A stretch of DNA of 64,000 nt from NCBI GenBank assembly GCA_001897535.1, contig MKTC01000040.1, forward strand, positions 124,001 to 188,000, written 5' to 3'. The notes under the pieces are model-generated. The model ran no database searches. It had not been told where the DNA came from and worked only from the letters and a program-made list of their open reading frames with translations. Numbering within the stretch: the stretch's first letter is position 1; every line of letters begins with the position of its first letter. Positions 51,165-61,583 of this stretch are shown piece by piece. Source of the DNA: Bacteroidetes bacterium 37-13. GTDB taxonomy: Bacteria; Bacteroidota; Bacteroidia; Chitinophagales; LD1. Made by a program: the position numbers and the translations under genes.

Positions 51165-51184
51165 TTCAGGATTACCAAAAAAAA

Positions 51185-51549
51185 GTTGCACACCTATAAG
51201 CCGGATTCTGTTTTTGCCAAAGCAAACCTCTACCATTTATCTGCAGTTGCGCTCGCGCGAAACCTTTAGCACTCAACCCCCTTGCATCGAGCGAGTAGCC
51301 CTCAAGCGCAAGTGTACATGAGCTTTCAACCCGTGAGGTTTACCCTTCTACCAATTTACATTGGCAGAACGTGCGCTCTTACCGCACATTTTCACCTTTT
51401 CCTTGCGGCAAAAAATTGCTGCCAGGTAGTTATTTTCTGTGGCACTCTCTTTTTTGCTATTGCAAAAACCACCCGTTAGGTGGCACGGTACTCTTTGTTG
51501 TCCGGACTTTCCTCACCAAGTAAATTGGAGCGGCAGAGCGGTGTGCAAC
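51185..51549 (-). ncRNA. rnpB: RNase P RNA
   Basis: Reverse complement carries GAGGAAAGTCCGGACAAC near the 5' end and ACAGAATCCGGCTTATAGG near the 3' end; P1 arms gttgcacacc/ggtgtgcaac. Confidence 0.95.
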
Positions 51550-56994: not shown

Positions 56995-58275
56995 TTATTG
57001 AAGTTCTGAACTTAAAAATACTTGATTATTATTTACAATTCCCAATGGTTTACCAACAAACTGTTTACCAATAAATGGTGTGTTTTTAGATTGAGAAAAA
57101 ATATCTTTTTCTGTAAACGTCCATTTTGTATCAGTGGAGAATAGTGTGAGGTCTGCACGATTGCCTTCGTTGATACTGTTCTCTTCTAATTTTAATATTT
57201 TTCTTGCATTGGTTGAAAACAATTTTACTAGAGTTTCTGTATCTACCTTGTTGTTTAAGGCGGTATTGGCAACGGCAAAAGAAGTTTCTAATCCAATCAT
57301 TCCGAAGTCTGCTTTGTCGAACTCTAATTTTTTACAATCTTCTTCGTGTGGCTGGTGCTGCGATGTAATAGTATCAACTGTTCCTTCTTGAATTGCTTTT
57401 ACCATTGCTGCAATATCTTCACTTAATCGTAAAGGTGGATTTAGTTTAAATTGTGTGTTGTAGCTGCCAACTGCTTCATCAGTAAAAAGTAAATTATACG
57501 CATTTACAGAAACTGTAAGTTTTCCATTTTTCTTTTTAGCATTCTTAATTAACTCCAACGATTTTTTGAGTGAAATATCTAAAAAATGTAAGCGTGATTG
57601 TGTATAATCCAAAACGAACAAATCTCTTGCTACTGCGAGTGTTTCAGCAAATGCAGGCATAGCAGGCAGCCCAAGTTTTGTACTAAAAATACCTTCGTGC
57701 ATCACACCGTGTTTGGCTATGCTTTTATCTTCTGGGTGAACCAATAAAATGCCATCAAAAGCTTTGATATAATCTAAGGCTCTTTCTAACAATCCTGCAT
57801 TGAGCGAAGGATTTCCACCATCTGAAAAAGCCACCGCTCCGGCATGAAACATATCGTATAACTCTGCTAACTCTTTGCCTTCGCATTTTTGCGTAACTGC
57901 GCCAACGGGAAGTAAATTCACAATGTTGTCTTTAGCTTTGGAAAGCATATATTCCACCATGCTTTTGTTGTGCATAATCGGCATTGTATTGGGCATTGCA
58001 CAAACATGTGTGAAACCACCTGCGGCAGCAGCTTTGCAACCACTTTCTATAGTTTCTTTGTGCTCAAAACCAGGGTCGGCAAAATAGCTATTCATATCCA
58101 CCCAGCCTAAACTGAGTTGCAGTCCTTTTAATTTTACTTCTGTGTATTTTCCCGTAGGTTTTAAATTGCTTCCGATTTTGGCAATTACACCATTTTGAAT
58201 AAAAACATCTTTAACGGTGTTGTGATGTTTGGAACCGGTGTCAATAATCTTAGCTAATCGAATAAGAATGTTCAT
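56995..58275 (-). CDS. Dihydroorotase-like amidohydrolase with degenerate metal-binding motifs
   Basis: GWVDMNSYFADPGFEHKETIESGCKAAAAGGFTHVCAMPNTMP; TSQHQPHEEDCK. Confidence 0.85.
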   Translation of the reverse strand: MNILIRLAKIIDTGSKHHNTVKDVFIQNGVIAKIGSNLKPTGKYTEVKLKGLQLSLGWVDMNSYFADPGFEHKETIESGCKAAAAGGFTHVCAMPNTMPIMHNKSMVEYMLSKAKDNIVNLLPVGAVTQKCEGKELAELYDMFHAGAVAFSDGGNPSLNAGLLERALDYIKAFDGILLVHPEDKSIAKHGVMHEGIFSTKLGLPAMPAFAETLAVARDLFVLDYTQSRLHFLDISLKKSLELIKNAKKKNGKLTVSVNAYNLLFTDEAVGSYNTQFKLNPPLRLSEDIAAMVKAIQEGTVDTITSQHQPHEEDCKKLEFDKADFGMIGLETSFAVANTALNNKVDTETLVKLFSTNARKILKLEENSINEGNRADLTLFSTDTKWTFTEKDIFSQSKNTPFIGKQFVGKPLGIVNNNQVFLSSELQ

Positions 58276-58359
58276 GGGCTTGTTTACCGGAACTCAAAAA
58301 TATAAATGCGCGGCAAACTTTTGTAAGGAAGTTTTAAAACAAGGTTAAAAACAGAAAAA

Positions 58360-58399
58360 CAGGGTGTGAGGAAACCCTCTCTAAAACCTCAGCACCCTG
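58360..58399 (-). other. Hairpin 1 of a paired structured element (15-nt loop, bulged G)
   Basis: cagggtgtgagg-AAACCCTCTCTAAAA-cctcaGcaccctg. Confidence 0.8.
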
Positions 58400-58460
58400 C
58401 ATAATCTTTAATATTTGTTTCTGTTCTGCTTCTTTTTTACAGTTTGTTTTTTTGTAAGAA

Positions 58461-58498
58461 AGCGGGATGGGAAACCCTCTCTAAAACCCATGCCCGCT
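58461..58498 (-). other. Hairpin 2 of a paired structured element (same loop and bulge, different stem)
   Basis: agcgggatggg-AAACCCTCTCTAAAA-cccatGcccgct. Confidence 0.8.
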
Positions 58499-58511: not shown

Positions 58512-61500
58512 TTATTTTATCAATAGTTTTCGCACATAAATATCATCATTTGTTTTTATACTTACAATATAATTTCCACTTGCTAAATCTTCTACATTAA
58601 ACTCATAGTTTGCTAATTCTTTTCTTAAAATAATATCTATTGATTTTACAGTTTGTCCTGTAGCATTTCTAAAGCTGAAAGTAGCATCTTGTTCTGTAGC
58701 AACATCAATATCAATTTTAGTGGTAATGCTTGCCGGGTTAGGAATAAACTCCCCGATGCGAATAGCCTCTGTTTTATCGTTCAAAACAGCACTTGCTATT
58801 TTGGTGTATTCAAAACTTTCATCAAAATCCACTTGCTTTAAGCGGTAGTAGTAGCGTTTATTTAGCTCTACATTTTTATCGTTGTAAGTATAGTTTATGG
58901 TTTCTGTGCTATTTCCATTTCCTTGTACATAGCCAATGGCAGCAAACTCTTTTGCATCGGTGCTTCGTTCAACTGAAAAGCCGCGATTGTTGATTTCTGT
59001 TTCGGTAGTCCATTGCAGTTGTATAAATTTATTATCAACCGGAACAGCTTTAAAAGAAGACATTTTCACCGGAAGCAAACCACCACCGGAGCCAACGCCC
59101 CACTGTGAAAAGTGTGTGATTCCCGATACTACTATTTTACCATCTTGTACGGCAGCTCCGTTTTGTGTTCCTGCGAGTGTCCAATCGGAGGCAGAAGTTG
59201 AAGTATCGCCTCTGGTTAAGATATAGAAGTCATAATTTTCTAAGCCTGCAAAACTACTCACATCAAAAATTAATTCGTAATCACCACTCAGCTCGCCACC
59301 TACGCCAAAGTTAGGTTGCTGATCCGGCTCAATTAACCAAATGCCAGCCGGGTGTACTGTATTTATTTGCACATCTCCGTATTGTAAATTCAATCCATCG
59401 TCTGTACCGGGTTTGTTTATGAATTGAACTTTAATTTTAGTAACTCCTCCGGTAGTTCCACCGCGTGGGCGAATTTCACAAAGCGCATATACTATATCAT
59501 CGCCCACAGGGAAAGCAAACGAGCCGGTATCGCTAATAGTTCTTTCCAATGCTCCATTCACATAGTTATCTTCTCCATAGTTTGTAATGGCATTTACTGC
59601 TGGGTTAGTAACGCTGATTAGGTTTCCATTTGTTTTTACAATTCCATTATTAAGCGTTAGTGTGCCAGAAACTGTTACAGTATCTTGAATTGAAATTCCC
59701 TCAGGCGTAGTGTTGTTGATAGTTAAGTTGCTATAAATTCCGCCACTTATGAGGCTTACATCATTGCCTATAAAAGAAACCTTTGCATTGTTTGGGTGAA
59801 AACGACCATTGTTCACAAAATCGCCATACACATTTAATTCAGTAGTTGGGCCTATTAAAGTTAAATCTGCATCATAAGCAATTTCTAAGCGTTGTGTGTT
59901 TGCAATACCACTTGAAATAATTGGTTGAATGGAATCACTGTTTGGCTCAATTACTGTGTTTACGGTATCGGCAGGAACATTAAAATCAAACCAATTGTAG
60001 CAATCGTACCAATCTGCACTTTTTCTTCCAACCCATCTGGCACTTGTAATGGCACTTGGCAAAGAAACAACTGCTTGCACATTAGTAAAGTTAGTTGTAT
60101 GCGTAGCACAGCCGGTACTTGAAAGCTTTAATACTTTGTAAGTTGTAGTTACTGTTGGATTAACGGGGTAATAAAAAGTGGAGTTGGTAACATCTCTGAT
60201 AGTATCAATTTTTCCACTTACAGAATCTTGCAGAAAAATTTCAATAGGATAAGTTGTTTCACTAAAAGTAAACTTTAATTCAAATGGTTGAAATCTACAT
60301 TTTGTACCGCCTTCTAAAGTAACTGAAGCCGGAGAAGTAGCAGAAGCAAAATTCCAACCGGCATTTAGCACCGGTGCTTGGTTAAAACTACTGCTTATTG
60401 AATTCCACGAAGCTCCGCCAATTGCGCGTATTCCATTTATGTAAATATATCCTGCACAAACTATGCCACTTGGTTTAGAAAAATTTGCTGCATTTGAAGT
60501 AGAAGTGCTTTGTAAATATACGGGATAAGTTTGCGTAGCTGCTGAACTAAGTGTTGTACTTGCTCCAAAAAATTGAGTGGTTCCATATTTAAAGCGATGG
60601 CGGGCATTTGCTGCTAAAGAGACACTATTAACAAATGTATTATCTCCATTAAACAACAAGTTTCCTTTTGTGGCTACAAATGTATTGATTGTATTATTGC
60701 CTTCAATAGTAAGACTGCTAATAGCATTTGTTTTGGTTGGAGAAGAAATAGGCAGATTAACTGTAATTTTATTGTAGCTTAAATTTCCACCTTGCATAGA
60801 AACAACGCCATTACTTGAGGAGGAGTAAAACTCTATATTGCTGCTTCCTGCATTTAGCGTGAGCCCATTTGAGTTGCTCATATCCCACAGTGGCGTAGTA
60901 GATGAAACACAATACATTTTAATGTAAGAAGAACCCATGTTTAACACCCTGTTTTCTCCACTATTTGAAATAAAACTGCGAATACTTACGGTTTTGCCAT
61001 TTGTGTTTAGTGTACCTTTTTCTAAATAGATGTTTCCGGATGTTGAGGTTAAGTTACATACAAGTGTCCAAGTGCCACTATCTGAATTGAATTTTAAGTT
61101 TCCTGTTCCTGTAATTGCACTTGGAATGTTTAATGCTTTCGCGCCCGTGCCTTTAAAATATATATTGCTATTGTTTACGAATTTAAAAACTGATGTAGTA
61201 ATAATATCTCCAAAAATACTTAGTGAACTTTGCACTTTTAAACTTGGTGCATTTGAAGAACTTTTGTAAGTATAAGTTGCATTTCGGCAATCGATGGTTG
61301 CGCAAGTAGCAGCAACATCAACGGTAACAACTTGTAACGAACCAGTGAATGAATAGCGGTCAAAAATTACAATATCGTTGCTATCCGGCAATTCTTGAAA
61401 TGCGTGTCCGCTTCCATTAGAAGTTGCAGCCCAGTGATGTAAATCGCTCCAGTTTCCAGAGCCTTGTACCCAATAATATGTAGCCGCATTTGCAGAAAAA

Positions 61501-61583
61501 CTCCACATTGCCAACAAGAAACTAACAACGAGGGTTGTCCATTTTGTAATTTGTGGTTTCATAAGGTTAAAAATTGGGTTCAT
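58512..61583 (-). CDS. Large secreted surface protein with T9SS type A sorting domain
   Basis: Signal peptide, YYWVQGSGNWSDLHHWA repeats, C-terminal FIPNPASITTKIDIDV...GNYIVSIKTNDDIYVRKLLIK. Confidence 0.88.
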   Translation of the reverse strand: MNPIFNLMKPQITKWTTLVVSFLLAMWSFSANAATYYWVQGSGNWSDLHHWAATSNGSGHAFQELPDSNDIVIFDRYSFTGSLQVVTVDVAATCATIDCRNATYTYKSSSNAPSLKVQSSLSIFGDIITTSVFKFVNNSNIYFKGTGAKALNIPSAITGTGNLKFNSDSGTWTLVCNLTSTSGNIYLEKGTLNTNGKTVSIRSFISNSGENRVLNMGSSYIKMYCVSSTTPLWDMSNSNGLTLNAGSSNIEFYSSSSNGVVSMQGGNLSYNKITVNLPISSPTKTNAISSLTIEGNNTINTFVATKGNLLFNGDNTFVNSVSLAANARHRFKYGTTQFFGASTTLSSAATQTYPVYLQSTSTSNAANFSKPSGIVCAGYIYINGIRAIGGASWNSISSSFNQAPVLNAGWNFASATSPASVTLEGGTKCRFQPFELKFTFSETTYPIEIFLQDSVSGKIDTIRDVTNSTFYYPVNPTVTTTYKVLKLSSTGCATHTTNFTNVQAVVSLPSAITSARWVGRKSADWYDCYNWFDFNVPADTVNTVIEPNSDSIQPIISSGIANTQRLEIAYDADLTLIGPTTELNVYGDFVNNGRFHPNNAKVSFIGNDVSLISGGIYSNLTINNTTPEGISIQDTVTVSGTLTLNNGIVKTNGNLISVTNPAVNAITNYGEDNYVNGALERTISDTGSFAFPVGDDIVYALCEIRPRGGTTGGVTKIKVQFINKPGTDDGLNLQYGDVQINTVHPAGIWLIEPDQQPNFGVGGELSGDYELIFDVSSFAGLENYDFYILTRGDTSTSASDWTLAGTQNGAAVQDGKIVVSGITHFSQWGVGSGGGLLPVKMSSFKAVPVDNKFIQLQWTTETEINNRGFSVERSTDAKEFAAIGYVQGNGNSTETINYTYNDKNVELNKRYYYRLKQVDFDESFEYTKIASAVLNDKTEAIRIGEFIPNPASITTKIDIDVATEQDATFSFRNATGQTVKSIDIILRKELANYEFNVEDLASGNYIVSIKTNDDIYVRKLLIK

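Follow-up and report, generated by a model that had tools for sequence, protein, structure and literature searches.

Among the described systems closest to the hairpins studied here are intrinsic (Rho-independent) terminators, including their tandem clusters (PMC8355165), which share with them a GC-rich stem at the 3' end, in most cases a U-tract and often an arrangement in pairs. The loops of such terminators normally carry no conserved sequence. ANTAR target RNAs (PMC3369931) are bound by a protein and consist of two adjacent hairpins with conserved residues in short terminal loops, linked to termination. The FopS sRNAs of Bacteroides thetaiotaomicron (PMC11697453), likewise from the Bacteroidota, are multicopy RNAs with terminator hairpins that are bound by the RRM-1 protein RbpB; their conserved seed lies in a single-stranded 5' stretch. 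REP/BIME and other stem-loop families (PMC2267715) are intergenic hairpins, sometimes in tandem, whose repeats include the stem. In DNA-uptake-sequence terminators (cited in PMC2267715), a fixed sequence lies in the paired arms of terminator hairpins.

Here, we study a hairpin pair from the window, i.e., the whole stretch of 64,000 nucleotides of Bacteroidetes bacterium 37-13, and its counterparts in the same genus. On the transcript strand, these are stable GC-rich hairpins that follow a gene, as in intrinsic terminators, and since most members have a U-tract they resemble these. In contrast to ordinary terminators, conservation resides in the loop, which two members keep even without a U-tract. 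Unlike ANTAR targets, the loops have 13-20 nt, the hairpins sit at 3' ends and some loci hold only one; ANTAR proteins gave zero matches in the three genomes of the genus, as they did in the control genomes. The FopS layout (5' single-stranded seed, then terminator) was not found; the conserved part is the terminator loop itself, and there was no match to an Rfam model, with the proviso that the library may lack FopS.

The remaining candidates were rejected. REP/BIME elements require many copies and a conserved stem, but about 4-5 copies with different stems were found, the loop alone being conserved. For ends of IS200/IS605-type transposons, no transposase gene lies between or beside the hairpins among the neighbours examined. 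A DNA uptake sequence would be strongly over-represented, but the loop 8-mer GAGGGTTT occurs 12 times in about 854 kb, which is not above control 8-mers, and it lies in the unpaired loop. As a variety of intrinsic terminator, the element is new; it is real and lineage-restricted, and its function is what we infer below.

The hairpin pair in the window

The features of the locus are listed in Table 1. The earlier note had described two hairpins with identical loop and different but paired stems, located 3' of a T9SS gene and before a dihydroorotase-like gene; sequence, coordinates and position all proved correct. Both flanking genes are encoded on the minus strand, and hairpin 2 (hp2), the first on the transcript, starts 13 nt past the stop of the T9SS-cargo gene.

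Table 1. Features of the hairpin locus, in window coordinates.
Feature	Position	Strand	Remark
Upstream gene	58512..61583	-	1023-aa protein with T9SS C-terminal sorting domain (Por_Secre_tail); hp1/hp2 in its 3' region
Hairpin 2 (hp2)	58461..58498	-	Stem AGCGGG/CCCGCT + ATGGG/CCCAT; U-tract not clear
hp2 bulge, single base	58492..58492	-	C on transcript, G on + strand
hp2 loop	58472..58486	-	TTTTAGAGAGGGTTT on transcript strand
Hairpin 1 (hp1)	58360..58399	-	Stem CAGGGTG/CACCCTG + TGAGG/CCTCA; second on transcript; intrinsic-terminator-like
hp1 bulge, single base	58392..58392	-	
hp1 loop	58372..58386	-	Same as hp2 loop
hp1 U-tract on transcript	58347..58359	-	TTTTTCTGTTTTT
Downstream gene	56995..58275	-	Amidohydrolase / dihydroorotase-like; place not conserved in congeners

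On the plus strand, hp1 reads CAGGGTG-TGAGG-AAACCCTCTCTAAAA-CCTCA-G-CACCCTG and hp2 reads AGCGGG-ATGGG-(same loop)-CCCAT-G-CCCGCT. The respective minus-strand RNAs are AGCGGG-C-AUGGG-UUUUAGAGAGGGUUU-CCCAU-CCCGCU for hp2 and CAGGGUG-C-UGAGG-(same loop)-CCUCA-CACCCUG for hp1. That is, two identical loops of 15 nt are carried by different stems. The folding energies of both hairpins range from -16.6 to -18.1 kcal/mol on either strand (z of -3.2 to -4.3 vs. shuffled sequences). Within the 3.1 Mb genome, the exact loop (0 mismatches) is found only at hp1 and hp2; one further site with a single mismatch does not form this hairpin. Rfam provided no relevant match for the hairpins, neither at or above gathering score nor at a permissive E-value.

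The suggestion that hp1 acts as a terminator agrees with its sequence, given that its U-tract directly follows the stem on the minus strand, so that hp1 is probably terminator-like. For hp2, a clear U-run had been found lacking, and indeed its 3' flank on the minus strand is only TTTCTTAC.

Two side observations concern the surroundings of the pair. The motif TTTT(T/C)AACCT follows the last hairpin of the T9SS locus in all three species (58337-58347, minus strand, in the window); its AACCU might base-pair with the GGGUU in the loop. The motif was not seen at the other loci. Furthermore, the window encodes a bacterial class A RNase P RNA at 51181-51549 (minus strand, 238.5 bits).

Members of the class and their distribution

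The genus set comprises three genomes, i.e., G000 (this genome), G001 (UBA7692) and G002. The earlier note had made its reading depend on further copies with varied stems in related genomes, and both congeneric genomes hold such copies. Two hairpins follow the orthologous T9SS gene of G002 (74% identical over the part searched), where they are followed by a different gene than in the window, in convergent orientation. In G001, two hairpins are found after another T9SS gene, with a third hairpin behind them that has a U-run but not the loop. Four more are intergenic, about 275 nt downstream of a DUF2752 gene, within repeated units of about 131 nt that are structured and end in a loop terminator with T7-T8. 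The covariance model search that had been proposed, done with a ten-hairpin model, and a loop-core pattern search added members with shorter loops, namely in contig C7 of G000 and in C31 of G000 with its orthologue in C1 of G002. A hairpin in C2 of G002 is more degenerate, and its loop UUUUUUUGGGAGGAUUUU retains only the U-purine-U plan. These additional members, C2 included, are independent and have stems of their own.

Apart from the degenerate C2 member, the loops share a consensus that reads, on the transcript, U3-4, then 0-6 bases that are mostly purines, GAGGG and again U3-4. The class is small, with about 4-5 copies per genome (G000: about 4 hairpins at 3 loci), and several loci hold a single hairpin. 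The 100-bp spacing reported for the pair is true of the window but not of other loci, where the loops are 53 bp (G002) and 42 bp (G001) apart. A single bulge is shared by hp1, hp2, the two T9SS hairpins of G002 and three hairpins of the G001 array; in the rest it is absent, on the opposite side or enlarged. Bulge and spacing are therefore not general, and the spacing is incidental.

The ~131-nt units of G001 (L029:4013-4463, minus strand) deserve a description of their own. Between the four loop terminators, they show a conserved CCTGAC...GTCAGG stem as well as a variable inner hairpin that is apparently compensated, and they have no Rfam match. They may be tandem structured RNAs.

All loci lie downstream of a gene with GAGGG (C2: a purine run) on the mRNA-sense strand. 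The upstream genes encode T9SS cargo (three genomes), an ORF of 33-34 aa, a DUF2752 protein and the major head proteins of two prophages; neighbours examined were T9SS cargo, amidohydrolase, SUI1-like, DUF2752, VanZ-like and phage structural genes. A general tie to T9SS genes was rejected, since T9SS paralogues in C5 of G000 and C14 of G001 have ordinary short-loop terminators. In two unrelated prophages (L166, L283), a terminator with U-purine-U loop lies directly 3' of the major head protein gene, and the head proteins (phrog_267 and phrog_212) show no BLASTP similarity to each other. The 33-34-aa ORF is conserved with a hydrophobic core and is followed by loop terminators in both G000 and G002. 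It is located at L148:1305-1406 and at the orthologous position in L156 (MNTRTTINENYLKLVVVLVFASWLTMAILPLLY in G000), has no Pfam match and is possibly a small membrane protein.

A T5-T8 tract immediately follows the stem in most members, but is weak at hp2 and absent at both G001 T9SS hairpins. Because these two precede an ordinary terminator, the loop is separable from termination.

Beyond the genus, covariance-model searches in 399 genomes of the order and 396 of the class (stricter filters) found no loop-bearing relative with varied stems, and the exact pattern occurred in G000 only among 399 genomes of the phylum, where all three sets are samples and such big searches miss weak matches. 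The model matches obtained in order and class were rejected as ordinary terminators or as one locus of genus g168 with unchanged stem. A pattern scan of the genome collection gave 93 loci, with real hairpins of this kind only in UBA7692, and none of 22 matches in viral contigs had the hairpin. Within the samples searched, the hairpin class is thus most likely restricted to the genus.

Three sequences outside the genus were noted on the side. In four genomes of g168 (L354, L355, L357, L358), an orthologous terminator carries loop GAGGGTTTA on a stem that does not change. A different genus of the same family (L018, G006:C13:216773) shows tandem units of about 46 nt with arms like GGGGAGAGAG...CTCTCTCCCC and varying inner sequence. 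A tandem repeat of period 106 containing GAGAGGGTTTCCCGC in UWPOB_CHIT8 (Chitinophagales; L106:1-450) was discarded as unrelated.

Conservation of loop and stem

Compensatory change around a constant loop, as claimed for the window pair, was found to be strong across members. In the first 10 hairpins, 100% of the cells of the stem alignment are paired with 18 double-changed cells; for 14 hairpins, these values are 96.9% and 35. The respective covariation score for 14 hairpins is 0.635 compared to 0.206 +/- 0.034 for shuffled and at most 0.153 for slid alignments. All counts lean towards structure, as the alignments had been fitted to it and the relatedness among the sequences persists under shuffling. 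The stems are also evident in each sequence when folded singly.

As a control for the loop, we compared the first terminators after orthologous genes between about 854 kb of G000 and 1.19 Mb of G002, which provided 18 pairs with terminators in both genomes. In the ordinary terminators of these genomes, loop sequences drift: 17/18 pairs have at most 4 consecutive loop bases in common and usually differ in loop length, and in one of these the stem was retained but not the loop. Only the T9SS pair (1/18) keeps its loop (15 bases), with no more than 4 bases in common between the 5' arms.

The core 8-mer GAGGGTTT is found in the loop of a hairpin of at least 10 bp at 4/12 sites in G000 and 3/21 sites in G002. 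For control 8-mers, this holds for 1/~233 and 2/336 sites, respectively (Fisher p-values 1.6e-5 and 1.6e-3). Excluding the window pair that prompted the search, the enrichment in G000 has p=0.004. In addition, the ~854 kb of G000 contain six intergenic AACCCTC sites, 4/6 of which are the loops of these hairpins. On the other hand, in an unbiased count of recurring loop 8-mers in G000, GAGGGTTT is tied for the top but does not exceed the shuffled maximum of 5. Since the unbiased count does not single it out, the class has to be small genome-wide.

Candidate readers of the loop

A near-constant loop on freely changing stems suggests that the loop is read by some component of the cell. We therefore favour, with moderate confidence, hairpins at mRNA 3' ends that mostly double as intrinsic terminators, are restricted to the genus and present the loop as recognition site for a trans-acting factor. 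The loop would be recognised by its sequence and the stem would only need to pair. In vivo, the hairpins would terminate transcription, and binding of the factor to the loop would determine how efficiently termination occurs, how stable the 3' end is or how the mRNA is translated. Of the sequence-specific recognition proposed in the earlier note, the kept loop on varying stems is observed and recognition itself is what we infer from it. The targets, i.e., a large surface protein, the capsid proteins of two prophages and a small putative membrane protein, further suggest highly expressed mRNAs.

For the factor, we consider an RNA-binding protein more likely than a small RNA, given that the sample contained no conserved antisense match and that elements of the loop are only loosely spaced. 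Each of the three genomes encodes one RRM_1 protein (G000:C16:173897 in G000). RbpB, an RRM-1 protein of B. thetaiotaomicron, binds many RNAs with preference for single-stranded regions (PMC11697453), which makes the RRM_1 protein a reasonable first candidate for the loop reader and no more. Only tentatively do we go further to a genus-specific loop code, in which a dedicated factor would read U-GAGGG-U loops at 3' ends and coordinate termination or stability of a small mRNA regulon, and the unrelated prophages would have acquired the loop behind their capsid genes to use the host system.

Pairing of the loop with an RNA seems unlikely to us. Here, the partner would be a small or antisense RNA carrying AAACCCUC, or the tandem units of G001 would be multicopy small RNAs with a seed in the terminator loop. 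The loop is single-stranded and conserved, the array consists of ~131-nt structured units with loop terminator and T7-T8 at the end, and ACCCTC (the complement of GAGGGT) is present in 2/3 of the array spacers. However, ACCCTC is absent near the other loci, loop length and the bases preceding GAGGG vary, and of the two non-loop AACCCTC sites in the ~854 kb of G000 one is unmatched in the G002 sequence compared, whereas for the other the match is confined to the part upstream of the motif. Pairing of the loop with ACCCTC within one molecule was rejected as well, being found only in two array spacers.

Even less probable are ordinary intrinsic terminators whose loop likeness reflects common descent by duplication plus chance, without function. 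Stable GC-rich stems and U-tracts in most members fit this reading, and tandem terminator hairpins are common (PMC8355165). Yet, the 17 ordinary orthologous terminators lost their loop likeness over equal divergence, while here the stems changed and the loop stayed constant. Furthermore, two members without U-tract have a separate terminator behind them, and the loop core is common to unrelated prophage loci.

It is very improbable that the element acts as DNA, i.e., as a REP-like repeat, a transposon end or an uptake signal that is read as extruded or single-stranded hairpin DNA. While a bulged hairpin with conserved loop, tandem copies and the four-copy array in G001 would suit such an element, copies per genome are very few, stems are not conserved and no transposase is among the examined neighbours. 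Every locus follows a gene in sense orientation, and in most cases the same strand has a U-tract, such that an RNA reading fits better than the REP-like DNA that had been listed as an option.

Finally, we give hardly any credence to a Shine-Dalgarno-like loop that engages ribosomes, e.g. bS21-deficient ones: every loop contains GAGG or GGAGG and the predicted duplexes of -6.1 to -10.7 kcal/mol beat 94-99.7% of shuffled loops, but these values refer to a generic 16S tail rather than the genome's own, and any purine-rich loop pairs with this generic tail. Bacteroidia ribosomes do not normally recognise SD sequences (PMC9976891), and this reading accounts neither for the U-tracts on both sides nor for the GGGUUU side.

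Terminator loops are usually regarded as free to vary, whereas in the hairpins described here conservation of the loop exceeds that of the stem. If a trans-acting factor recognises it, the loop provides a concrete bait sequence with a built-in control, i.e., a scrambled loop on the same stem. To our knowledge, few RNA-binding regulators are known for Bacteroidota, and a loop class that chromosomal genes have in common with unrelated prophages suggests that mRNA 3' ends in this phylum are read by a trans-acting factor.
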